Below are positions 7,821 to 19,736 of a stretch of 64,000 nt of DNA, piece by piece. The DNA is from Methylocystis iwaonis. Lineage in GTDB: Bacteria; Pseudomonadota; Alphaproteobacteria; Rhizobiales; Beijerinckiaceae. The position numbers and the translations under genes were made by a program. The notes below the pieces were generated by a model that did not search any database, had not been told where the DNA came from, and was given only the letters and a program-made list of their open reading frames with translations. Numbering within the stretch: the stretch's first letter is position 1; every line of letters begins with the position of its first letter. The DNA lies in assembly GCF_027925385.1 (NCBI RefSeq), contig NZ_AP027142.1, positions 3,669,947 through 3,733,946 on the forward strand, read 5' to 3'.

Positions 7821-9662
7821 ATGATCTCTTCCGCGATTCGCGGCCGCCCAAAGAGGCGCCGCCTTCCGAGCCTCGCCCTTGCGCTGCTGACGGCCTTTGC
7901 GCCCGGCGGTCCGCTCATGGCGGGCGAGCCTACTCATGGCCTGGCGGCGCATGGCGCGCCGGCGCTGCCGCCGGACTTCGATCATCTCCCTTACGCCGAC
8001 CCGCAAGCAAAGAAAGGCGGCAGGCTTCGTGTCGGTCTCGCCGGGACATTCGACAGCCTCAACCCCTTCAATCTCAAATCCGGCTCCACGGCCCAGGGCC
8101 TCGTCGGCAATGTCTTTCAAGGAATGATGGCGCGGTCGCAGGATGAGCCTTTCACGCTCTATCCGCTCATCGCGCAATCGCTCGACATCGACGCCGCCCG
8201 CGCCCATGTGACCTTCCACCTCGACACACGAGCGCATTTCTCCGACGGCAAACCCATCACCTCGGAAGACGTGCTGTTTTCCTTCAACCTGCTCAAGTCG
8301 AAGGGCCGCCCGCAGCAGCGGGTCGCCTATGGGCTCGTGAAATCGATCACAGCACCCGACGCGCAGACGGTCTCCTACGATCTGACCGGCGTCGGCGATC
8401 GCGAGCTGCCGCTTATTCTCGCCATCATGCCCGTGCTGCCCAGGCACGCGACCGACCTCGAGCGATTCTCGGACGCGACGCTCGCCAAGCCCCTTGGCTC
8501 AGGCCCCTATATCGTCGCGGATGCGCAGGCCGGCGCGCGGCTGCTGTTGAAGCGCGACCCCAACTATTGGGGCGCGGACGTTCCGAGCCAGCGCGGCTTC
8601 TACAATTTCGACGAGATCGACATTCAATACTTCCGCGACGGCAACGCCCTGTTCGAGGCCTTCAAGGCCGGCTTGATCGACTATCGCGAAGAGACCAGCA
8701 CGACCCGCTGGTCGACCGGCTACGACTTCCCCGCATTGCGCGAGGGCCGCGTTGCAACCGAGGCGTTGAAGAACGAGAACCCCAAGGGGCTCGAAGGCTT
8801 CGTCTTCAACACGCGACAAACGATCTTCAAAGACATCCGGCTGCGTGAAGCGCTCGGCATGATGTTCGATTTCGAGTGGATCAACGCCAATCTCTATTCG
8901 AACCTCTATACGCGCACCAAAAGCTTCTTCGACGAATCGGAGCTTTCCGCCTCGGGCCGTCCCGCGAATGAGAAGGAGCGCGCGCTTCTTGCGCCCTACC
9001 CTGACGCCGTGCGCGCGGATATTCTCGACGGGAAATGGCGCCCGCCGGTCAACGACGGTTCGGGCCGCGACCGCGAGATGGCCAAGCGCGCGCTCGAATT
9101 GCTGGCGGCGGCCGGCTACCATGTGAACGGCGACAAGCTTTCGAAGGACGGCGCGCCGGTTTCCTTCGAGATCATGGTGAAGGACCGCAATCAGGAGCGT
9201 CTTGCGCTCAATTATGCGGCTTCCCTCGCGCGCATCGGCGTCGAGGCGCGCGTCAGGCTCGTCGACGAAGTGCAATATCAGCGCCGGCGCCAGAAGTTCG
9301 ATTTCGACATGATGATCGGGCAGTATCTGGCGTCGGCCTCGCCCGGCAATGAGCAGCGCATGCGTTGGGGCTCGGCGAGCGCGACGCAGGAATCCTCTTT
9401 CAATCTCGCTGGCGCCGCATCGCCCGCGATCGACAGCCTGATCGTTGCGCTCCTCTCCGCGCAAAGCCACGAGGATTTCGTCGCGGCGGTGCGCGCCTAT
9501 GACCGCGTGCTGCTCTCGGGCTTTTATGTCGTGCCTTTGTTTCACGCCTCCGAGCAATGGATCGCGCATTCGACCGACCTCGCCCGGCCCGAGCGCCTGC
9601 CGCGCTACGCAGCGCCGCTCTTTGGCCCGACGCTCGAGAGCTGGTGGAGGAAAAATCCATGA
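7821..9662 (+). CDS. Family 5 extracellular solute-binding protein (oligopeptide/YejA-like)
   Basis: The 613-residue protein starts with an export signal (basic N-terminus followed by LALALLTAFAPGG, cleavage expected near residue 35) and then an SBP_bac_5 fold recognisable by KKGGRLRVGLAGTFDSLNPF, the strand-turn LLKRDPNYWG and the C-terminal VVPLFHASEQWIA. Its size and the DFDHLPYADPQAKKGG opening resemble YejA/AppA-type oligopeptide receptors. No permease or ATPase genes lie beside it, so the transporter must be encoded elsewhere. Its stop codon overlaps the next start (ATGA), so the next gene is translationally coupled. Confidence 0.9.
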   Translation: MISSAIRGRPKRRRLPSLALALLTAFAPGGPLMAGEPTHGLAAHGAPALPPDFDHLPYADPQAKKGGRLRVGLAGTFDSLNPFNLKSGSTAQGLVGNVFQGMMARSQDEPFTLYPLIAQSLDIDAARAHVTFHLDTRAHFSDGKPITSEDVLFSFNLLKSKGRPQQRVAYGLVKSITAPDAQTVSYDLTGVGDRELPLILAIMPVLPRHATDLERFSDATLAKPLGSGPYIVADAQAGARLLLKRDPNYWGADVPSQRGFYNFDEIDIQYFRDGNALFEAFKAGLIDYREETSTTRWSTGYDFPALREGRVATEALKNENPKGLEGFVFNTRQTIFKDIRLREALGMMFDFEWINANLYSNLYTRTKSFFDESELSASGRPANEKERALLAPYPDAVRADILDGKWRPPVNDGSGRDREMAKRALELLAAAGYHVNGDKLSKDGAPVSFEIMVKDRNQERLALNYAASLARIGVEARVRLVDEVQYQRRRQKFDFDMMIGQYLASASPGNEQRMRWGSASATQESSFNLAGAASPAIDSLIVALLSAQSHEDFVAAVRAYDRVLLSGFYVVPLFHASEQWIAHSTDLARPERLPRYAAPLFGPTLESWWRKNP

Positions 9663-10687
9663 CCGCGCGCGCCGCTGTTTCCGAGAGAGAGGAAGCGGCG
9701 CTCGTCCGCGCCCATCCGCTGACGCAATTCGGCTTCGACGCCCTCGTCGCCGGCGCGGCGAGACCGCGTCCCGGCGGGCTCGCCTTTCTCGATGACGTCG
9801 ACGGCGCCGTGGACCAGGTCACCTACGCCGATCTCTACCAGCGCGTCGGCGCTTGCCTTTCCAAGCTCCGCGCCCTCGATCTCGCGCGCGGCGAGAGAAT
9901 TCTCATCTGCTCTCCATCCGGCGCGCAAGCCTTTGTCGCGCTCGTCGGCGCGCTCGCCGCGGGCCTGGCGCCGACGCTCGCGCCCATGCCCCTCCCCCAA
10001 TGGCGCGCAGCCATCGCGCATGGGGCGAAGACATTGCAGATCGGTGCGCTGTTCGCGCCGGCGCAGATCTGCGGCCTCGATTTCGAGGAGGCGCTGCTCG
10101 ACATCGCCGCCGATACGCCGTCATTGCGTGTGATCGGCGCGCTGCATGGCGCGCTCGACGGCGCTGCTGATTTTTCAGCGCAAGCGCTCGCGGCGCAGAT
10201 GTCGCCGCGCGTGCCGCTCTCCGAAGATTGGAGCGACGACGAACGCTTCGATGTCGGCGCGCTCGACGAGCGCGGGAATGTCCGTTTCGCTTCGCAAGGC
10301 GCGCTGCTCGGCGCAGCGCTCGATCTCGTGCGCGCGACTCGCGCCGCGCGCGAAGCGCCCATTCTTTCGCTCTATGCGCCGAGTTCGCTCGCGGCTCTTG
10401 TCGCGGGCCCGCTCGCGGCGTTGCTCGCAGGCGCGCCGCTGCATTTTCTTGCGCCTTTCACCACGGCGCGCTTTCTCGAAACGCTCGATGCGCTTGGGTC
10501 GGCGCGATTGATTGCACCGGTTTCCATCCTCGCCGATCTCGTACGCGCCGGACTGCTCGACAATGGCGCCATCGCCGCAGTCGTCGCCTTGGGAGATGGC
10601 GCCGCTTGCGTCGGCGACTCGCAAGAACGCTGTCCGATTATCGCGCTGCGCGCGGAAGACGACGCGTTCGTTTTGCGCAGACTCTGA
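9659..10687 (+). CDS. AMP-binding-like protein lacking the P-loop and C-terminal domain
   Basis: The 342-residue product resembles the N-terminal half of acyl-CoA synthetase/NRPS adenylation proteins: VTYADLYQRV, ILICSPSGAQAFVALVGAL and the AGLAPTLAPMPLP segment match the early conserved region. The adenylate-forming P-loop (TSGTTGxPKG type) is absent; FASQGALLGAALDLV occupies about the expected position, and no C-terminal subdomain follows. It is therefore either a non-catalytic relative or a decayed gene, yet the frame is open throughout and coupled to the upstream solute-binding protein by an ATGA overlap. The stop is about 15 bases before a family B repeat. Function unknown. Confidence 0.6.
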   Translation: MTARAAVSEREEAALVRAHPLTQFGFDALVAGAARPRPGGLAFLDDVDGAVDQVTYADLYQRVGACLSKLRALDLARGERILICSPSGAQAFVALVGALAAGLAPTLAPMPLPQWRAAIAHGAKTLQIGALFAPAQICGLDFEEALLDIAADTPSLRVIGALHGALDGAADFSAQALAAQMSPRVPLSEDWSDDERFDVGALDERGNVRFASQGALLGAALDLVRATRAAREAPILSLYAPSSLAALVAGPLAALLAGAPLHFLAPFTTARFLETLDALGSARLIAPVSILADLVRAGLLDNGAIAAVVALGDGAACVGDSQERCPIIALRAEDDAFVLRRL

Positions 10688-10786: not shown

Positions 10787-10951
10787 CGGCGAATGATGGG
10801 CGCGTCACATTGTCTCGTGTTGACGCCGGTCAATTACAGCCTCGAGTCATCACGTCAAAGTGCGTGCGCGACGAGATCGCGCATGCGCTTTTGCAATTGC
10901 GCGACTCGTCGCCACGAGGGGCGCATGGGGCGTTGGTGTGGAGGAAACTGC

Positions 10952-11359
10952 ATGTCGCTTATCACCTGGACCAAGGAACAATTCGCGACCAACGTCAGCG
11001 CGCATGATGCGGAACATCAGGAAATATTCAGGCTGGTGAATGTGCTCGGCGACGCCGTCGCCAGCGGCGACCGAAACGCGATCGGCAAGGAGCTCGATGC
11101 GCTCATCGACTATGTGGTGAAGCACTTCGCGGCGGAGGAAGCGAATTTCGCACAATATGACTATCCAGCCGCAGCCGGCCACAAAGCCGAGCACGACAAG
11201 CTGGTCGCAACTTGCGCCGATTTGCAAAAGAAATTCCACGCCGGCGAAGCGGAGGTGACCGGAGAGACGGCCGGCTTCGTGGTCGGCTGGCTGACGGACC
11301 ACATCCCCAATATCGACAGGCTCTACGGCCCTTATCTGAACGCGAAGGGCGTCGCCTGA
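10952..11359 (+). CDS. Bacteriohemerythrin
   Basis: Small cytosolic O2-binding di-iron protein of 135 residues. All expected iron ligands can be read: the first His in AHDAEHQEIF, His and Glu in HFAAEEANF, two His in GHKAEHDKL, and His and Asp in WLTDHIPNID. In Methylococcus a homologue is proposed to deliver O2 to particulate methane monooxygenase; in other bacteria the family serves O2 sensing or storage. The ATG at 10952 is preceded by GAGGAAACTGC, a good ribosome-binding site; the longer in-frame extension has no protein-like sequence. Monocistronic by context. Confidence 0.93.
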   Translation: MSLITWTKEQFATNVSAHDAEHQEIFRLVNVLGDAVASGDRNAIGKELDALIDYVVKHFAAEEANFAQYDYPAAAGHKAEHDKLVATCADLQKKFHAGEAEVTGETAGFVVGWLTDHIPNIDRLYGPYLNAKGVA

Positions 11360-11752: not shown

Positions 11753-12304
11753 TTATCTGTGTTTTTCCAGCCACTGCAGAACGAGCGGATCGTCGATTGC
11801 GCCGGTCACGGCGATCACCCCGCCGTCGGGCGCCACAAGCGCGGTGAACGGCAATTCGCCCCGCCACGTCTTATCGGCCTCGAAATAGAGCTTCTCGACG
11901 AAATCATCCGCAAAACCGTAATGCGCCGATTTGCCGAGCCCGGCTTTCTCGGCGCGCGCCGCCGCCCGTGCGCGATCTTCTTCGCTATCGACATTGACGA
12001 AGACGATGTCGACATCCTTGTGTTCGGCCGTCATCTGCGCCCATTGCGCCAGCTCGGCGAGGCAGGGCGGGCAGGTGACGGACCAGAAGTGAATCATCAG
12101 CGGCCGCCCCGCATGCGCCTTGGCGATCTGCGAGAAGGCGCCGCGACCATAGGGCTTGAAATCGAGCGCATGGGCGCTCGAAGCGGTGAAGGCGATAAAG
12201 GCGCAGAGGGAGAGACGAACAGCGAGACTGTTTCGTCCGTCATTCCCGGCGAGCCGAAGGCGGGAATGACAGGCTGCACGTAAAGCGGCGATCACCTTCT
12301 TCAT
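11753..12304 (-). CDS. TlpA-like periplasmic thioredoxin
   Basis: The 183-residue protein has an export signal (hydrophobic segment ending TASSAHA, about residues 32-48) and a thioredoxin fold with the active site FWSVTCPPCLAEL and the cis-Pro region WRGELPFTALV. TlpA-like proteins reduce or protect thiols of periplasmic partners, often in cytochrome or copper-site assembly. It is the last gene of the exbB operon and overlaps the propeller gene by 4 bases, which makes the Cys-rich propeller a plausible substrate (inference). Oddity: residues 12-25 (CHSRLRLAGNDG region) are a truncated family C palindrome read in frame. No alternative start codon exists between the repeat and the hydrophobic core, so the repeat is probably translated. 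Confidence 0.85.
   Translation of the reverse strand: MKKVIAALRAACHSRLRLAGNDGRNSLAVRLSLCAFIAFTASSAHALDFKPYGRGAFSQIAKAHAGRPLMIHFWSVTCPPCLAELAQWAQMTAEHKDVDIVFVNVDSEEDRARAAARAEKAGLGKSAHYGFADDFVEKLYFEADKTWRGELPFTALVAPDGGVIAVTGAIDDPLVLQWLEKHR
12237..12272. repeat. Truncated family C palindrome inside the tlpA-like coding region
   Basis: GTCATTCCCGGCGAGCCGAA followed by GGCGGGAATGAC: the outer CATTCCC/GGGAATG arms match family C, with the interior shortened. It lies in the signal-peptide n-region of the TlpA-like gene and keeps the frame open. Confidence 0.7.
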
Positions 12305-13566
12305 CGCACTGCGGCACTCTTCTCGTCGCGGGGAAGCGGCAGCAGGCGATAGCCCTCCTTATGCGTCACCCACGAAAGATAAGCCGCGCCCTTGTAGGCG
12401 ACGAGCTCCGGATGATCCGAGGCGTCGTCGGTCTGCGCGAGGATTTTCGGCGCGCTCCAGCTTTTGCCGCCATCACGCGAGAGCTGCAGTGGGATGGTCG
12501 TCGTCGTCCCGTCGAACTCCTTCCAGACGCGATAGAGACGGCCTTTCGCCGCGAGCACGACGGGGTGGCCCGGGGCCTTGGCGTCGTCGCCGAATTTCTC
12601 GGGGCTGGAGAAGCTTTTTCCCGAATCTTCGCTATGCGCGTAGAAAAGCCCCTGCCGATTCTTGCCCTTGGTGAACCAGACCGCGTGCCATCCGCCATGG
12701 GCGTCGACGGCGAGGCTGGGGCCATGGTGCGGGCAGGAATTGATCGCCCAATTATCGTCGGAAACGCGCCCGCCCGTCAGCGTCGCGCCATCGGCGGAAA
12801 GCTTCGCAGCGTAGTGATCGCGAACATTGCCGTCGAAGACCTGCCGCCACAGAAACACCGGCAGGCCGTCGCGATCCAGCGCCGCAGACATGCGGCAACA
12901 TTCGCAGGCGTGGTCCATCAGGATTTTTTTGCCCGCAAAGCTCTGCCCATTATCGTCCGACCAGGCGAAGGCGACGCCGCTGCCCTCGAACTCCTTGCCC
13001 TCGGCCTTGGCCTTCAGAGCATTGGTCTTGTCGAGCCAGCCGGCGTAGAGGCGCCCCTTGGGCGTGACGACGAAAGTCTCGAAGCGCTGCCCGCCGGAGG
13101 CGAGCAGCGCTTGGGGCGTGGAGAAGCTTTTGCCGCCGTCGGTCGAGCGCGCCGTGAAGATCGTGCCGATCATCTGCTTGTCGGGCCGCGTCGTATAGCT
13201 GGCGAGCAGCGATCCATCGTCGAGGGGAACGATCTTCGGCCGTGCGTCGCCATGGGCGTCGATGACGCCGTCGCTGACCGACGCGATCGCGACGGGCGCG
13301 GAAAAGCTTTTGGCCCCGTCCGCGGAAGAGGCGACATAGACCGTCTTTTCGATGGCGTAAGCGACCCAAAGCTTGCCCTTGGCGTCGTACGCCGGGTTGA
13401 CGGTCGCGGCGCAATCCGGCTTGCGCTCGGCGCAGGCCAGCGCGCTATGTCGATGCCCTTCGGCCGGCGCCGGAGCCGGCGCGCTGAGCTCGGCGTCGGC
13501 GCCGCCGCTCAGGCCGAACATGGCGGCCGATATGATAATCACGCGCGGAATGGCCATCGACTCCAT
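12301..13566 (-). CDS. Exported Asp-box beta-propeller with a Cys/His-rich centre (annotated elsewhere as sialidase-like)
   Basis: The 421-residue protein has a signal peptide (about residues 1-26) and five Asp-box repeats of the S-x-D-x-G-x-S-F/W type (SSADGAKSFSAP, STDGGKSFSTP, SDDNGQSFAG, SEDSGKSFSSP, SRDGGKSWSAP), indicating a six-bladed propeller. Real sialidases need an arginine triad and a Tyr/Glu pair that I do not see. Instead the middle carries DHACECCRMSAALD (three cysteines and a His in eight residues) and INSCPHHGPS, and the mature N-terminus has GHRHSALACAERKPDC. This Cys/His content suggests metal or haem binding (inference). Encoded between an exported TonB-like protein and a TlpA-like thioredoxin. 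Confidence 0.75.
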   Translation of the reverse strand: MESMAIPRVIIISAAMFGLSGGADAELSAPAPAPAEGHRHSALACAERKPDCAATVNPAYDAKGKLWVAYAIEKTVYVASSADGAKSFSAPVAIASVSDGVIDAHGDARPKIVPLDDGSLLASYTTRPDKQMIGTIFTARSTDGGKSFSTPQALLASGGQRFETFVVTPKGRLYAGWLDKTNALKAKAEGKEFEGSGVAFAWSDDNGQSFAGKKILMDHACECCRMSAALDRDGLPVFLWRQVFDGNVRDHYAAKLSADGATLTGGRVSDDNWAINSCPHHGPSLAVDAHGGWHAVWFTKGKNRQGLFYAHSEDSGKSFSSPEKFGDDAKAPGHPVVLAAKGRLYRVWKEFDGTTTTIPLQLSRDGGKSWSAPKILAQTDDASDHPELVAYKGAAYLSWVTHKEGYRLLPLPRDEKSAAVR

Positions 13567-13589
13567 GACTTCCCTCTAATCGTTTCGCT

Positions 13590-14024
13590 TCAGCGGAACT
13601 TGAAGGTCTGACCGACATCCATCGCGCCGCCGGGCGGGGCAGGAACGACAACCGCCGCCAGTATTTTCTTCACCATCTCGGCATGCGCCGGGCTCGTCGT
13701 CTTGTCGATCGTCACTTTCTCGATCTTGCCAGAGGCGCCGACGATGAAGCTCGCCCTCACCTCGCCCGGCCCGGAGGCGTTTTCCTCCGGCGTATGCTTG
13801 GCGATCTCGGCGTAGAGCAGACCGAGATATTTGCTCTCGGACATGCCAGAGGCGGGCGCGGGCGCTGTTTGGGGCGCGGGTTTCGGCGCGGCTGGCGCAG
13901 GCGCCGGCTTTGCCGCGGCGGCGGGAGCTGGGGCGGACGGCGGCTTGGGGGCCTCCGCCCGCGCGGCGCCGGTAAGGACGAGCGCGCAAAGAATTGCGAC
14001 GCGCCCGCTGAGGAGAACCTTCAT
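13590..14024 (-). CDS. Exported TonB C-terminal-like protein without a membrane anchor
   Basis: The 144-residue protein begins with a cleavable-looking signal peptide (MKVLLSGRVAILCALVLTGA, then ARAEAP), followed by a 45-residue Pro/Ala/Lys spacer and a TonB-like C-terminal domain with GEVRASFIVGASGKIEKVTI and ending in QTFKFR. Unlike canonical TonB it has a signal peptide rather than the His-containing transmembrane anchor, so it should be free in the periplasm or tethered differently. It follows tonB in the exbBD operon. The ATG at 14024 is preferred because it starts the signal peptide; an upstream start at 14081 would overlap tonB but gives an unlikely Arg-rich N-terminus. Confidence 0.75.
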   Translation of the reverse strand: MKVLLSGRVAILCALVLTGAARAEAPKPPSAPAPAAAAKPAPAPAAPKPAPQTAPAPASGMSESKYLGLLYAEIAKHTPEENASGPGEVRASFIVGASGKIEKVTIDKTTSPAHAEMVKKILAAVVVPAPPGGAMDVGQTFKFR

Positions 14025-14077
14025 GGCGTGCTTCCAACAAGAGAAGCGGCGGGCTCTTGCGAGTCCGCCGGCAAAGG

Positions 14078-14791
14078 TCAATGGAAGGCGAAGGCTTGGC
14101 TTACAAAGGCGGAGCCGCAGCTACCCGGACCGCGTGACGAGCCCACGATGCGCCGCGCCAGCGCCGCATGCGCCGGGGTCGAGCCGGAAGCCGAAACGCC
14201 CGAAATGCCGCCGCCGGCGTTCACATGAAAGGTCACATGGGCCGTGCCGGCGCCGAGGCTCGTCGAGCCCGGCGTATGCTGGCGCAGCGAGGCGGCGACA
14301 TGGGCGAGGCAGCTCGCCTGCGACGCGCCGCTGGTGGCGCCGCCCGCATTCGGCGCGCCGGCGCGACGACGCGCCTGCGCTTCGCGGCGTTGCTCGGCGC
14401 GCTCGATTTCCTTGCGCTCTTCCTTCTTTTTCTCGAGCTTCTCGGTGTCGTCCTTTTTCACCGCGAGCGGGATCGCGTCCGGCGCCATGACGACCGGGGG
14501 CGGCAAGGCGAGGTCCGGCTGCTCGACGGCGACCGGCGGGGGCGTGTCCTCCGCCGCGCTCACTTCCTGCTGCTCGATGAAATCGCCCTCCTGGACGAGA
14601 TCCATGGAGAGCGAGTCGAGCGAGATCGTCTTGGGCGCCGGCGCGTAAAGGAAGGCCGCGAAGACAGCGATATGCGCGGCGACGATCACCGTGACGGCGA
14701 CGGGGCGCAGCCACGGCGGATTGACCGGCGGCGCGCCTTCCGGCTCGTCGGGCTGGCTGGCGTAGTCGGGGCTGAGGGCGAAGTCCGTCAT
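14078..14791 (-). CDS. tonB: TonB energy transducer
   Basis: The 237-residue protein spans the periplasm and couples ExbBD proton flow to an outer-membrane receptor. It has one N-terminal membrane helix (about residues 31-52) containing the conserved His ([10 protein letters not shown]), a Pro-rich and then Lys/Glu/Arg-rich spacer (about 75-150) and a C-terminal domain ([17 protein letters not shown]) that binds the TonB box. An extra Cys pair in the last 80 residues (SCLAHV and GSCGSAF) is unusual and could form a disulphide. Start overlaps the exbD stop by 4 bases. Confidence 0.88.
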
Positions 14792-15285
14792 TTCGCCGCC
14801 CCTCCCGCCGGAGCCGGCGCGGCGGGCGTAGCAGGCGCAGCGGCTTTCGCCGCCGAGCCGGTCTTGCTGCGCGAATTGGTCATGATGGCGATATGAGTGA
14901 TGCCATTCGTCGCGAGTCTGTCCATCACCGCGACGACTTCGCCATAGACCGCCTCGGTATCGCCGCGGACATGCACGACGCGCGTGACGTCCTCGCCCAT
15001 CATGGCGCGAATGCCGTCGATGAGCGCCTCCTCGGACACCGGATCGGCGCCGAGCGACACCTTGCCGTCCTTGCCGACCGTGACGACGATCGGGTCCTTC
15101 TGATTGATCGGCTGCGCGGCGCTGGCCTGAGGCAGATTGACCTTCACGCCTTTGGCGAGCAGCGGCGCGGTCACCATGAAGATGATGAGCAGCACCAGCA
15201 TCACGTCGACGAGCGGCGTGACATTGATGTCGGCGAGCGGCTGATAAAGGTCGTTGTTGTTCTTGAAGCGGGTCGGGAGCGCCAT
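14788..15285 (-). CDS. exbD: ExbD, TonB-system proton channel subunit
   Basis: The 165-residue protein has one N-terminal membrane helix with the essential aspartate in [20 protein letters not shown], then a periplasmic domain with the family's [19 protein letters not shown] segment. The C-terminal 25 residues are an Ala/Pro-rich tail not found in short ExbD proteins. The gene starts one base before the exbB stop region ends and overlaps tonB, so exbB-exbD-tonB is one tightly coupled unit. Confidence 0.93.
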
Positions 15286-15936
15286 TTATGCGGCCTCCTT
15301 TTGCGAACGGCGGGCGTTCGGCGCGCTGGTCATGCGCAGCGCCTCGTCCTCGATGTAATGCGCGACCTGCTGGCCGAGGCGCGAGAAGGAAGAGCCGATA
15401 CGGTTATAGCCGACCGAAGCCGGAATGGCGGCGGCGAGGCCATAAGCGGTCGCGGCGAGCGCTTCCGCAATGCCCGGCGCGACAACCGCGAGGCTGGTGT
15501 CCTGCGACTGCGCAATGCCGGCGAAGCTCGTCATGATGCCCCAAACCGTGCCGAAGAGGCCGACGAAGGGCGCGACCGAGGAGATCACGGCGAGATTGGG
15601 CAGGCCGCCCTCGGCCTTGGTGAGAAATTCGCGGGCAGCGCGGCTCATATTTTCGGCAATTCGCTCACGCTTGTCGCCGGTCGTCTCATCGGGAAGATCG
15701 AGCGCGAAAGCTTCCCGGCCAGCGGCGGCGACGGGTTCGAGAAGGCCGACCGGCCCGCCTGCGCGCGCCTCCTTAGTCGCCTTGGCGATGCGAATGACGG
15801 CTGTGGCGCCTTCGATGATCAGCACCCAGGTCCAGACAGAAGCAAGAAGCAGAGCCGCCATGACGACCTTGCCGACAGGGCCGGCGTTGAGAAACATGGC
15901 GAGCGGGGAAAGCGACGTATGGTCCATAGAACTCAC
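15286..15936 (-). CDS. exbB: ExbB, TonB-system proton channel subunit
   Basis: The 216-residue ExbB (MotA/TolQ/ExbB family) has three membrane segments (about residues 17-40, 108-135 and 152-175). The conserved GLFGTVWGIMTSF and ALAATAYGLAAAIPA motifs line the proton path. The GTG at 15936 follows GAGGATGA at good spacing; an ATG three codons in is the alternative. It opens the exbB-exbD-tonB unit; a DUF2946-like gene lies 145 bases upstream on the same strand and may share its transcript. Confidence 0.93.
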   Translation of the reverse strand: MSSMDHTSLSPLAMFLNAGPVGKVVMAALLLASVWTWVLIIEGATAVIRIAKATKEARAGGPVGLLEPVAAAGREAFALDLPDETTGDKRERIAENMSRAAREFLTKAEGGLPNLAVISSVAPFVGLFGTVWGIMTSFAGIAQSQDTSLAVVAPGIAEALAATAYGLAAAIPASVGYNRIGSSFSRLGQQVAHYIEDEALRMTSAPNARRSQKEAA

Positions 15937-16081
15937 TCATCCTCGACGGCGCGCGCAGAGCAGCAACGGCGTCTGACATTGATTTTATTGTGATCTTGGA
16001 CGCTCAAGGGCGTCTCTGACCGGCGATCTTACCCGCATGCAGCACGCGAGCCAGCGCTAGGTTCCGCCGATCGGAAAGTTT

Positions 16082-16504
16082 CTAAACTATAGAGGGTGGC
16101 GCTCGGGCCCCATTGATGGAGGGCGAAGAGCAACCGTCCCGCGCGAATGTCGCCGCCACGCTGTAGGAAACCGGCCTCTGCGCCTGCAGCGGCCGCGTCA
16201 CCGGCGCGAGCCGCTCTGGCAGAACAGCCGCCGCCATGCTCGCCGCAAGACAGCACGGGCAATGATGCTTGCCGGCGTAGTCGGTCCCGGGCGCCTTGTC
16301 GCTCGCGGCGTCGGCGCGCTGCGTCATATGACGCTTGAAGCAAGCGAACAGGCCTACAGCAGTTTTATCGTTGTTTTTTAATACGGTGTCAGTCGCGCCC
16401 GCGACCGCCGCGCCTGACGCGGACACGCCGAACATCAGCGCCCATACCGCAGCGATGACGATCGCTACGCGTATTCTTTCGCCGATGTCCCGCATGTGTG
16501 ACAT
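16082..16504 (-). CDS. DUF2946-like Cys/His protein (first copy)
   Basis: The 140-residue protein has a hydrophobic N-terminal segment (about residues 12-36, an export signal or anchor), the cysteine/histidine motif KHHCPCCLAAS near residue 85 and a C-terminal GARAPPSIV. The HxxC/CC motif in the middle and the terminal RAPP are characteristic of DUF2946 proteins, which are often found beside TonB-dependent copper receptors and copper-resistance genes. I infer metal binding. It lies upstream of exbB on the same strand and is divergent from the second DUF2946-like gene. Confidence 0.65.
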   Translation of the reverse strand: MSHMRDIGERIRVAIVIAAVWALMFGVSASGAAVAGATDTVLKNNDKTAVGLFACFKRHMTQRADAASDKAPGTDYAGKHHCPCCLAASMAAAVLPERLAPVTRPLQAQRPVSYSVAATFARDGCSSPSINGARAPPSIV

Positions 16505-16688
16505 AAAAGTCTCTTAATGGATTTTTTGATTTCTGACAACGCAAGCAATCTTGGAATGCTTCTCGGCCAGCGGCAGAGTTCATTGCGTCGCGCGATCAAG
16601 GTTAACGTGATGAACCAAAATCGCGATCACGCCGTGAGGCGCCTTTTTCGCGGGCGCCGTATGGCTTCTCGGGACTGTCTGCCGGCCC
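16505..16688. promoter_or_regulatory. Divergent control region of the TonB-receptor locus
   Basis: 184 bases between the two divergent DUF2946-like genes, the only place where both transcription units of the uptake locus can start. It contains an imperfect inverted repeat GGTT-N9-AACC near 16600-16617 and a local AT-rich stretch (GGATTTTTTGATTTCTGACA). I recognise no Fur, Zur or CueR box and no cobalamin riboswitch, so the regulator is unknown. Confidence 0.4.
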
Positions 16689-17057
16689 ATGCGTCAAAGG
16701 CTACTCGCATCGCTGATCGTCTGTGTCGCTTTGCTGACACAGCTCGGCGCATCGCTATGGGGCGCCGCCGCGGCGCGCGAGGGCTATGCGGGTTGCCACA
16801 AGCAGACGGCGATCGTTTTGGCGCCGGGCGCGCGCAACGACCCGCTCGCGCCCTTCGACGCGCCAGCGCCGCATGACCACGCCTCCTGCTCTCTCTGCCA
16901 GCTTGGCTTCACGGCGATCGACAGCGACGCGCCGAGCCTGCCGGCGGGACGCCCCGCGCCCTATTGGCGTGTCTCGGCCGCCGAGTTGGCCGTCCCGCCG
17001 CGCGCCAAAATATTCAATCGAAACGCGCCCGCCCGAGCGCCGCCATTCCAGGCCTGA
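16689..17057 (+). CDS. DUF2946-like Cys/His protein (second copy)
   Basis: The 122-residue protein has a signal-like N-terminus (about residues 1-28, LLASLIVCVALLTQLGAS), an early Cys (YAGCHKQ), the motif PHDHASCSLCQLGF in the middle and ends NAPARAPPFQA. The CxxC flanked by His and the C-terminal RAPP match DUF2946, and the C-terminus parallels that of the first copy, though overall similarity between the two is low. It lies 81 bases upstream of the TonB-dependent receptor gene on the same strand and is probably co-transcribed with it. Confidence 0.65.
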   Translation: MRQRLLASLIVCVALLTQLGASLWGAAAAREGYAGCHKQTAIVLAPGARNDPLAPFDAPAPHDHASCSLCQLGFTAIDSDAPSLPAGRPAPYWRVSAAELAVPPRAKIFNRNAPARAPPFQA

Positions 17058-17138
17058 TCCACTCCGATTAAGCGTAACGGCGCGCCGCGCCGGGATCAGA
17101 CGCGCCGCCTTGTCCGGCGCGAAGAGGGAACACCAACA

Positions 17139-19736
17139 ATGTACCGCCATCACCTCCTGCGCGGCGTCTCCGCCTGCGCTTTGACTTTCGCCGCTCTGTC
17201 GCCCGCGCAGGCGACGCATACGCTGCCGACCATCGACGTCAGCGGCCAGCACCATCATGCGCCCGCTCGCAGTTCGGCTCCTGCCCGCGCCGCCGGGCCA
17301 GTCGCCGCGCGGCCCGGCGTCGCCAGCGCGCCCGCGCCATCGCCGATCGTCTCGCGCTGGTCGCCGACCCTGCCCGACGGCCGCCCCGCCTTTGTCGAAA
17401 AGTGGCAGTTGCCGAATACGGTCGCGAGCGTCACGCGCAAGCAGATCGAACGGCAGATCAACATCGTCGACACGGAAGACGCGGTGAAATACATGCCGAG
17501 CCTTTTCGTGCGCAAACGCAATAATGGCGACACGCAGGCGGTGCTGCAGACCCGCACCTGGGGCGTCAGCTCCTCGGCCCGCAGCCTGGTCTACGCAGAC
17601 GACCTTCTGCTCACCGCGCTCATCGGCAACGACAACACAATTGGCGCGCCGCGCTGGGGGCTTGTCGCGCCGGAAGAGATCGAGCGCGTCGATTTCCTCT
17701 ACGGCCCCTATGCGGCGCAATATCCGGGCAACTCGATGGGGGGCGTGCTGAAGATTACGACGCGCATGCCCGAGAAGCTGGAAGTGTCGATCAAGGACAC
17801 GCTCGCCGTCCAGGATTTCTCGCAGTATGGAACGAACAAGGGCCTCGTCAACAATGTGACGAGCTTCTTCGCCGGCGATCGCATAGGCGACCTGTCCTGG
17901 ACGATCTCAGGCAATTGGCAGCGCGGCTCGCAGCAGCCGCTGACCTATGTGACCTCGCCCAATTTCTACCCCAACGCCTATCTGGCGACGAACGTCTATG
18001 GGACGACCTTCGCCAATGTGATCGGCTCGACCGGCAATCTGGCGAACGATCAGGTGAATGCGAAACTCAAGCTCGCCTATGACTTCAGCCAGACGATCCG
18101 AGGCACGTACACTTTCGGCTTTTGGTCGAATGACGGGACATCGATTCCCGAGAATTACCTTTTCTCCGGATACGGCCCGGTTTGGGGCGTGACGACCGCG
18201 GGCCGGGGCTTGAACAACACCGCGCTGCAAAATTTTGCGACTCAGGGCTATTACCGAATCCAGGAAAAGATCATGGTCAACGCGGCCGCGATCCGATCCA
18301 ACAGCGGCGGCCCTTTCGATTTTGAAGTCTCGGCCTCCAATTTCACCTATCTGCAGTCCGATCAGGTCTCGCCCTGGTCAGCCGCCATTCCCTTCGGCGG
18401 CTACACGCAGACAGGCCGCAACACGGTGTTCACCGGCACCTATTGGACGCTCTTCGATATGAAGGGCATTGTTCGCCCCCCCGAAGGGCTGTTGCAGGGG
18501 CACGACATCAGCTTCGGCTTGCATGGCGACCAATTCCACCTCAACAATCCTGTGTGGCTGACGGCGAACTGGCCCTCCGGCACGGCCGCGAGCACCGGCG
18601 CGGCGGTTTCGATCGCGCAGGGCACGACCCGCACCCAGGCGCTCTGGTTTCAGGACGCCTTCCCGATTGCGCACAATCTGAAGCTCACCGCCGGCTTACG
18701 CGGCGAGCATTGGACGGCCTCGGAGGGCTACAATCAGCAGGCCGGCGTCAATAATTTCGGCACCAATCTCGCTGGCAATCCGCTAGGTTGGCTCCCGATC
18801 TACCAGCCGAACCTGTACAGCACGCGCTTCTCTCCGAAGGGGACGCTCGAATATATCGTCGACGACAAATGGACGATCAGGGGATCAGTCGGCATGGCTA
18901 ATCGCTTCCCGACGGTGCGCGAGCTCTATAATCTCGCAACCGTGGGGGTGAACGGCGTTGCGACCAACCCCAACCCCAATCTGCGGCCCGAGTCGGCCCT
19001 CAGTAAAGAATTAACGGTCGAGCGGAAGCTTGGCCTGGACGGCCTTGCGCGAGTCTCGTTCTTCGACGAAGAGGTGCGCGACGCCATCATCAACCAGCTG
19101 ACCTTCTCGCCTGGCACGAACATTCCCACGCAGGCGCCAACAAACGTTCAGCGCATCCGCAACAGCGGCGTCGAAGTCGCCTTCCAGAAGGACAATTTTG
19201 GCTTCAAGGGGCTGGAGGTGCTGGGCAGCGCAACATGGCTCAATGCGCGGATCATCTCCAATCCGACCTGGGCGCCGAGCGTCGCCAATTTTGAATACCC
19301 CTGGGCAATCTCGGTCGCAGGCAAGACTGTGCCAAATGTTCCCGAGTGGCGCGGGACATTAGCTTTCACCTACCGTCCCGACGACCAATGGGCCTTCACA
19401 CTCGCAGGCCGCTACCAAAGCAAGATGTGGCGCACCATGGCCAATAACGACCGCGCCTATGGCATATATCAGGCTTTCGATCCTTTCTTTGTCGTCGACA
19501 CAAAGGTCAACTACAAGTGGAACGAGCGGCTGTCCTTCGACTTCGGCATCGACAACATCGGGAACTACAGATATTTCCTGTTCCATCCCTTCCCGCAGCG
19601 AACCTTCTATTTTGCCGCGAAGTATGACTACGGCGCCGCCAAGCATCCCGAGCGGGGAATATTTTATGCGGGGAATGAGAGCGGCCTGCCCGACGTGAGG
19701 AACTGGTTCCAACCGGTCGCTTTCTCGATCGATTGA
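17139..19736 (+). CDS. TonB-dependent outer-membrane receptor, probably for a metal or metal chelate
   Basis: The 865-residue receptor has a signal peptide (about residues 1-26), then a TonB box-like TLPTIDVSG immediately followed by a His-rich GQHHHAPARS and a Pro/Ala spacer. Next comes the plug domain (about 85-205; IERVDFLYGPYAAQYPGNSMGG is its hallmark) and a 22-strand barrel with the terminal strand ending in FQPVAFSID. A good Shine-Dalgarno (GAAGAGGGAAC) precedes the ATG. The neighbouring exbBD-tonB and DUF2946-like genes point to metal import; copper is favoured by the family context, but sequence alone does not show the ligand. A strong terminator follows. Confidence 0.92.
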   Translation: MYRHHLLRGVSACALTFAALSPAQATHTLPTIDVSGQHHHAPARSSAPARAAGPVAARPGVASAPAPSPIVSRWSPTLPDGRPAFVEKWQLPNTVASVTRKQIERQINIVDTEDAVKYMPSLFVRKRNNGDTQAVLQTRTWGVSSSARSLVYADDLLLTALIGNDNTIGAPRWGLVAPEEIERVDFLYGPYAAQYPGNSMGGVLKITTRMPEKLEVSIKDTLAVQDFSQYGTNKGLVNNVTSFFAGDRIGDLSWTISGNWQRGSQQPLTYVTSPNFYPNAYLATNVYGTTFANVIGSTGNLANDQVNAKLKLAYDFSQTIRGTYTFGFWSNDGTSIPENYLFSGYGPVWGVTTAGRGLNNTALQNFATQGYYRIQEKIMVNAAAIRSNSGGPFDFEVSASNFTYLQSDQVSPWSAAIPFGGYTQTGRNTVFTGTYWTLFDMKGIVRPPEGLLQGHDISFGLHGDQFHLNNPVWLTANWPSGTAASTGAAVSIAQGTTRTQALWFQDAFPIAHNLKLTAGLRGEHWTASEGYNQQAGVNNFGTNLAGNPLGWLPIYQPNLYSTRFSPKGTLEYIVDDKWTIRGSVGMANRFPTVRELYNLATVGVNGVATNPNPNLRPESALSKELTVERKLGLDGLARVSFFDEEVRDAIINQLTFSPGTNIPTQAPTNVQRIRNSGVEVAFQKDNFGFKGLEVLGSATWLNARIISNPTWAPSVANFEYPWAISVAGKTVPNVPEWRGTLAFTYRPDDQWAFTLAGRYQSKMWRTMANNDRAYGIYQAFDPFFVVDTKVNYKWNERLSFDFGIDNIGNYRYFLFHPFPQRTFYFAAKYDYGAAKHPERGIFYAGNESGLPDVRNWFQPVAFSID

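Follow-up and report, generated by a model that had tools for sequence, protein, structure and literature searches.

The window analysed here is a stretch of 64,000 nucleotides (nt) from Methylocystis iwaonis, and our subject is a set of nine genes within it (11753..19736) that forms a real, conserved locus, most likely for copper import, with two operons each headed by a putative leader open reading frame (ORF). On the minus strand, leader ORF A (16082..16504; DUF2946 family, 140 residues, Pfam 25.2 bits against a cut-off of 23.7) is the first gene of an operon that continues with genes for ExbB, a MotA/TolQ/ExbB proton channel (15286..15936; Pfam MotA_ExbB, 106.6 bits), ExbD (14788..15285; Pfam, 106 bits), a TonB-like protein with an N-terminal hydrophobic segment (14078..14791), an exported TonB C-terminal-domain protein (13590..14081), an exported BNR/Asp-box propeller (12301..13566; Pfam BNR_2) and an exported TlpA/ResA-like thioredoxin-fold protein with a CPPC motif (11753..12304; Pfam Redoxin and AhpC-TSA, just above cut-off). 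On the plus strand, leader ORF B (16689..17057; 122 residues, DUF2946 at 22.8 bits, slightly under the 23.7 cut-off) stands first before the gene for a TonB-dependent receptor (17139..19736; Pfam barrel 138 bits, plug 52 bits), whose TonB box, LPTIDV, is encoded at 17223-17240. The divergent region between the leaders (16505..16688) is, from its position, the presumed home of both promoters; a scan for sigma-70-like promoters gave no site within it.

The original prediction had proposed these nine genes, in this order and on these strands, and every ORF was found in its place, identified by Pfam or NCBIfam matches together with conserved position. Position matters most for the two TonB-type genes. 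The TonB-like gene had no Pfam TonB match and a partial, sub-cut-off NCBIfam TonB match, and the gene after it gave a weak TonB_C match below the Pfam cut-off and a partial NCBIfam match, also sub-cut-off. This latter gene starts with TTG, with an ATG 19 codons further in. Four-base overlaps, likewise predicted at several junctions, were found at three (TlpA/propeller, TonB/ExbD and TonB_C/TonB), the last only given the TTG start; the ExbD and ExbB genes abut without overlap. The genome contains five ExbD/TolR-type genes, so the Ton motor of the locus is one of several, and its place in the gene order suggests that it is a dedicated one.

The two putative DUF2946 leader ORFs

CruR of Bordetella pertussis is a leader ORF in which copper, sensed by a CxxC motif, relieves stalling at an RAPP motif, upon which Rho stops transcription before the receptor gene (PMC9426467). 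Copper repression in the CruR–BfrG system requires both RAPP and CxxC (PMC9426467), and translation arrest by CruR has been demonstrated in vitro (PMC12992588). Judged by their sequences, both DUF2946 genes of the locus probably resemble this published copper-responsive leader ORF and are not metal-handling helpers. Each encodes a short protein with a signal-peptide-like N-terminus and a CxxC upstream of a terminal RAPP. In leader A, CPCC (residues 82-85; 16250..16261) and the putative arrest motif (residues 134-137; 16094..16105) are 48 residues apart, and the protein ends in RAPPSIV. In leader B, CSLC (residues 67-70; 16887..16898) and RAPP (residues 116-119; 17034..17045) are separated by 45 residues, the same spacing as in CruR, with RAPPFQA at the end. 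The terminal motif is rare: among window ORFs of at least 60 residues, R[AG]PP occurs within the last 12 residues in 2 of 373, both being the DUF2946 leaders, and in none of 250 ORFs when the window sequence is reversed. The gap from leader A to exbB is 145 nt and that from leader B to the receptor gene 81 nt; the corresponding gap after CruR is 162 nt (PMC9426467). Over leader B there is also a C>G bubble of 24%, a value reached by only 4.4% of the 500-nt stretches of the window.

Leader B and the receptor thus share with CruR–BfrG–PepSY a DUF2946 leader carrying CxxC and a C-terminal RAPP, at the same spacing, before a TonB receptor (PMC9426467). The window differs in having two divergent leaders, the second of which stands over the Ton motor, the propeller and the TlpA-like gene, and no PepSY gene is present among the nine.

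The original prediction had taken the DUF2946 proteins for Cys/His-rich helpers. Were they stable periplasmic metal-binding proteins, the locus would still be a copper importer. Their signal-peptide-like starts and Cys/His motifs are compatible with such a role, and CutF, a related leader, was itself initially taken for a chaperone (PMC9426467). However, a C-terminal RAPP or RGPP at a near-fixed distance from CxxC across the examined loci, directly before exbB or the receptor gene, points to copper-sensing arrest leaders, and CruR was undetected in proteomes and inactive when expressed from another chromosomal place (PMC9426467). We consider the helper role distinctly unlikely.

Conservation in methanotroph loci

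We examined 27 loci (the window, L001-L021, L038 and L092-L095). Contigs were picked up by peptide patterns identical to those of the query, and the synteny counts therefore do not represent a random sample; L001 is from a near-identical strain, and L093 and L016, both of length 104,135, seem to be one contig. An exbB gene was found in 22 of the 27, with an RAPP leader upstream in all 22, and the five loci without it (L006, L008, L011, L015 and L018) end before it. The receptor gene was found in 19 of the 27, each time with a leader upstream, the tails reading RAPP in eight, RGPP in ten and RASP in one. On this receptor side the CxxC–RAPP spacing is 43-46 in 19/19 loci. In L017, L019 and L020, exbB is present and the DNA examined holds no such receptor. 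Allowing for contig ends and for up to three copies of the TonB_C-type gene, the gene order recurs across the relatives, far beyond chance. The synteny check suggested with the original prediction was thus run: the order of propeller, leader and exbBD-tonB is conserved, and relatives have copper-linked neighbours.

Those neighbours, namely CruR-type leaders, PCuAC, YcnI and CopCD, support the proposal that the locus serves TonB-dependent copper acquisition. The window receptor is 45% identical to that of the L163 operon, which by BLAST has the order leader-receptor-PCuAC-YcnI-CopCD. At L164 the order is leader-receptor-ExbB-ExbD, opposite YcnI-CopCD, so that a receptor of this kind is joined to a Ton motor outside the window's family as well. 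The L163 operon appears to match what is known of pcuABCDE, reportedly a copper-starvation operon of Bradyrhizobium japonicum. PcuD is a YcnI homologue (PMC8424229), and a copper-starvation-induced operon headed by a cruR homologue has been described (PMC9426467). The likeness to the window lies in the leader and the related receptor, genome G112 having leader-receptor (45% identical)-PCuAC-YcnI-CopCD. In contrast, the Pfam matches of the nine window genes include no PCuAC, YcnI or CopCD, and the pcu form is without Ton motor or propeller.

Receptor, propeller and the proposed mechanism

The receptor might instead serve iron or haem, a lanthanide or cobalamin, its neighbours being coincidental. 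Its best NCBIfam match is TonB-hemin, well under the cut-off (100 versus 316.85 bits), and its best match in the PDB is PhuR. Against this, the copper-linked neighbours of the relatives recur in several families, and an Rfam search found no riboswitch at the locus. Such substrates are very unlikely, and control by a cobalamin or other riboswitch was rejected for lack of an Rfam match.

Membership of the OprC/NosA group, whose TonB-dependent copper uptake at low copper (PMC7558416) parallels the role proposed for the locus, was likewise rejected. The window receptor lacks the OprC-type CxxxM-HxM site, its one Cys being residue 13 in the signal-peptide region, and it was not among the four matches, none above cut-off, of a genome search with TIGR01778. 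The His-rich stretch after the TonB box, which the original prediction had pointed out, is kept in the near-identical L001, partly kept in L002 and replaced elsewhere; a part in metal binding was rejected, as the segment is not conserved past the near-identical strain. We aligned 17 Methylocystis-type receptors, including that of the window, with four distant ones. Beyond the start Met, the conserved His, Met and Cys residues are M210, H455, H462 and H816 (17/17) and H467 (16/17), none of which is common to the four distant receptors.

A further possibility is that the substrate of the receptor is a chalkophore, for instance a foreign methanobactin, and not simple copper complexes, which would be compatible with a copper-starvation locus. 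The MbnT methanobactin receptors are also TonB receptors for copper in methanotrophs, and Methylosinus has two receptors for different methanobactins (PMC9601215). The window genome carries an MbnB gene (451 bits, above cut-off), and since it lies on another contig, C2, uptake of a foreign chalkophore is conceivable, if clearly the less likely case. Unlike the MbnT loci, the nine genes include no mbn gene by Pfam (beyond MbnB, other mbn genes were not searched for genome-wide), nor any sigma or anti-sigma gene, and the receptor's relatives occur with PCuAC, YcnI and CopCD.

The propeller carries the predicted CECC (residues 221-224; 12895..12906, minus strand) and CPHH (residues 278-281; 12724..12735, minus strand). 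In an alignment of 42 homologues, down to 38% identity, C221, C223, C224, C278 and H280 are invariant, giving a conserved CxCC/CPH; C45, C52 and H294 are kept in 41 and H251 in 40. Methylocystis sp. Sn-Cys has a propeller with 98% identity to the window's, as has a protein recorded under M. iwaonis. At E 1e-20 the propeller is rare. Among sampled genomes it was found in 7/297 from the order, 5/385 from the class and 8/119 from the family; the three samples overlap, and the window's own genome is counted in all of them.

Ten distant loci with the propeller, outside Methylocystis and genus g431 (L039-L043, L089-L091, L096 and L097), all have a TonB receptor beside it by Pfam (divergent in L096, and with only the receptor end present in L097) and a TlpA-like gene by BLAST. 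An RAPP or RGPP leader precedes the receptor in all nine that have upstream DNA, with a strict CxxC in five of these (L040-L043 and L090). By Pfam, L042 holds in a row a leader, receptor, propeller, thioredoxin, PCuAC, DUF1775/YcnI and CopC-CopD, and PCuAC was also found by BLAST in L040, L089, L090 and L091. A diverged second propeller (G780:C1:568920-570098, locus L098; 31% identity, with CACC and CPH), which was not part of the 42-sequence alignment, has a TonB receptor and two CruR-like leaders as neighbours.

Going by the BNR_2 match and the names given in databases, the propeller could be a genuine sialidase or some other glycoside hydrolase. However, its matches to PDB sequences are at chance level, the best sialidase at E 0.34. 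The conserved CxCC/CPH argues otherwise too, as does the fact that the gene always neighbours a receptor gene and a TlpA-like gene in the ten distant loci. The sialidase reading was rejected, and we regard a glycosidase of any kind as highly improbable. It is fair to read CxCC/CPH as a putative site for Cu(I) or for disulfide switching, a reading favoured by the TlpA-like gene next door. That the propeller itself binds copper is a serious suggestion, though one falling somewhat short of probable; its reduction by the TlpA-like protein is plausible.

The genes, their motifs and spacing, the conserved order and the copper-linked neighbours are all seen directly. We would put at about 70% the probability that they form an import locus for times of copper starvation, under the control of two nascent-chain leaders that sense copper. 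The leader mechanism and its direction would follow from family resemblance. When copper is scarce, the ribosome would stall at the RAPP end of each leader and so hold off Rho, or a different brake lying between the leader and the gene that follows, and the receptor and its own ExbB-ExbD-TonB motor would be produced. Copper, probably as a complex, would then pass the outer membrane. Once in the periplasm, it would be held as Cu(I) at the CxCC/CPH cluster of the propeller, while the TlpA-like protein may keep the cysteines of the propeller, or of a client, reduced, and the copper would move on towards cuproenzymes such as particulate methane monooxygenase or cytochrome oxidase. The form of the imported copper and the periplasmic roles of these two proteins are what we infer in this scheme. 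With sufficient copper, binding to the CxxC of the nascent leader would free the ribosome and both operons would be switched off.

Several observations weigh against this scheme. The CxxC–RAPP spacing of leader A is 48 residues, versus 45 in CruR, and it is 48-50 on the exbB side in 22/22 loci (for L021 as counted by hand), a further difference from CruR–BfrG–PepSY; in the relatives the spacings of the two sides do not overlap. The C>G bubble over leader A (11.5%) is not notable, 72% of 500-nt stretches reaching it, and the gap regions before exbB and the receptor gene fold no better than shuffles (z 0.23 and −0.56, respectively). Whilst leader B fits CruR well, leader A therefore fits less well. 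Leader A may use a variant mechanism, because lengthening CruR by five residues weakened its copper control (PMC9426467). Among the relatives, the RASP tail belongs to the receptor-side leader of L094, and a strict CxxC is missing in four of the nine distant leaders (L039, L089, L091 and L096). The receptor matches no copper-receptor model. The propeller is dispensable, since genome G756 has both leaders, the receptor, exbB, exbD and tonB and no propeller genome-wide (E 1e-20). No TlpA-like match was found in L094 and L095, and of three distant TlpA-like proteins submitted to Pfam (0.001), two (L039 and L091) gave no match. In view of G756, L094 and L095, the pairing of leader and motor is best taken as the firm core of the locus, with the propeller and TlpA-like protein as usual companions.

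The departures of leader A also bear on the direction of control. CutF of Rhodobacter capsulatus, like the putative leaders here an exported copper-sensing leader with a proline motif, acts in the opposite sense to CruR and activates cutO, a multicopper oxidase gene, with copper (PMC9973294). If the window leaders were CutF-like, copper would prolong stalling and the operons would be on, or the two leaders might act in opposite directions. The CutF system works through a stem-loop (PMC9973294), whereas neither window gap has a fold beyond chance, and a CutF-like RNA structure before exbB or the receptor gene was rejected on these folding energies. In addition, copper represses the receptor operon of CruR, and citations for oprC and for a Bradyrhizobium operon containing cruR homologues speak of lowering by copper or induction by copper starvation (PMC9426467). 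A CutF-like or opposed direction is therefore unlikely, and we retain repression of both operons by copper.

CruR leaders before receptors, and with them this class of regulator, are already known. Leader control over a Ton motor and over a copper-linked propeller seems undescribed. In the openly accessible literature searched, no paper places a leader over exbB-exbD-tonB or connects this propeller with copper; single cases may be listed in subscription papers or in supplements, among them the synteny tables for CruR. Searching for the name 'sialidase family protein' together with copper and TonB-dependent receptors likewise brought up no paper, and the main text of the 2026 Methylosinus copper transcriptome makes no mention of exbB, sialidase or DUF2946. 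In word look-ups, none of the CruR, CutF and RAPP papers names ExbB; sialidase does not occur in the first two of them, nor methane in the last two. The earlier statement that no system with exactly this set of parts has been described thus holds for the literature searched as regards the whole set, but not for its leader-receptor half, which is known from CruR-BfrG and the pcu operon. The propeller would define a periplasmic family with a link to copper that is new and now goes by the name 'sialidase' in databases.

Putative DUF2946 leaders elsewhere and the orphan pmoC

Methanotrophs need copper for their particulate methane monooxygenase, and the control of expression by copper (the 'copper switch') is a long-standing question. 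The window genome has six DUF2946 matches at E 0.001, and at least one was found in 36 of 39 genomes of the genus (up to nine), as against 1 of 14 control genomes. The best-scoring match in the window genome precedes an orphan pmoC. This putative leader (G000:C1:1257932-1258234, minus strand; L028 9933-10235) has a PRAPPAQAHAVSA end and CCxxH in place of CxxC, and the pmoC gene lies at G000:C1:1256931-1257701, minus strand (L028 8929-9702). We collected 24 places at 71% identity or more to this PmoC, 23 of which were taken as loci. An RAPP leader is present 157-249 nt upstream in 21 of the 23; of the other two, L133 has the same leader with RPPP, and L150 has too little DNA. Of 13 other pmoC loci, 12 have no RAPP ORF, and L084 has an unrelated-looking one 628 nt away.

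The orphan PmoCs differ from the others in sequence as well, all 23 reading EQTAVWH...TPSN versus EQDGTWH...TPSH in 13/13. The ligands in PmoC are Asp156, His160 and His173 for CuC and Asn227, His231 and His245 for CuD (PMC12576850). Mapped onto these by motif spacing, the change implies that the orphan PmoCs have lost two of the three CuC ligands and kept CuD. Singleton pmoC genes are known in Methylocystis (PMC10171618, PMC7716213); in the accessible parts of the literature searched we found no mention of their leaders or of lost ligands.

It is tempting to combine these observations into a Methylocystis copper regulon, in which CruR-type nascent-chain sensors would govern the Ton motor, the receptor, a new Cu(I)-handling propeller family with its TlpA-like partner and a CuC-depleted orphan PmoC. 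If so, scarce copper would lead the cell to import more of it and also to switch in a PmoC free of CuC. We hold this wider proposal only tentatively, with doubt prevailing: a strict CxxC is absent from all 22 leaders upstream of the orphan pmoC, which have CCxxH instead (for example HGFCCVLH), and the metal sensed by these leaders is therefore less certain. Copper-sensing leaders over the Ton motor, the receptor and possibly a PmoC variant would offer short, cloneable sequences for testing.

Other DUF2946 or RAPP-type ORFs were noted in passing. In eight Methylocystis loci (L100, L101, L106, L109, L118, L120, L126 and L127), one strand carries two ORFs that contain Cys and end in RAPP, with no panel gene found downstream of them. 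At L030, a DUF2946 ORF (10061-10453, minus strand) ends in RAPPVLI and has CC, not CxxC. Just before it is an ORF which we take to resemble obg, and the downstream ORFs given to Pfam yielded only a sub-cut-off RHS repeat match. At L029 (G000:C1:2846000-2864000), a TonB receptor follows an RGPP-ending DUF2946 leader, and two more RGPP- or RAPP-ending ORFs lie past the receptor on the same strand.

Two neighbours of the copper locus lie on the plus strand of the window. A family-5 solute-binding protein (SBP_bac_5) is encoded at 7821-9662; the methanobactin-binding MbnE is OppA-related (PMC7558416), with no link to this protein shown. A hemerythrin-domain protein (10793-11359) adjoins the locus itself.

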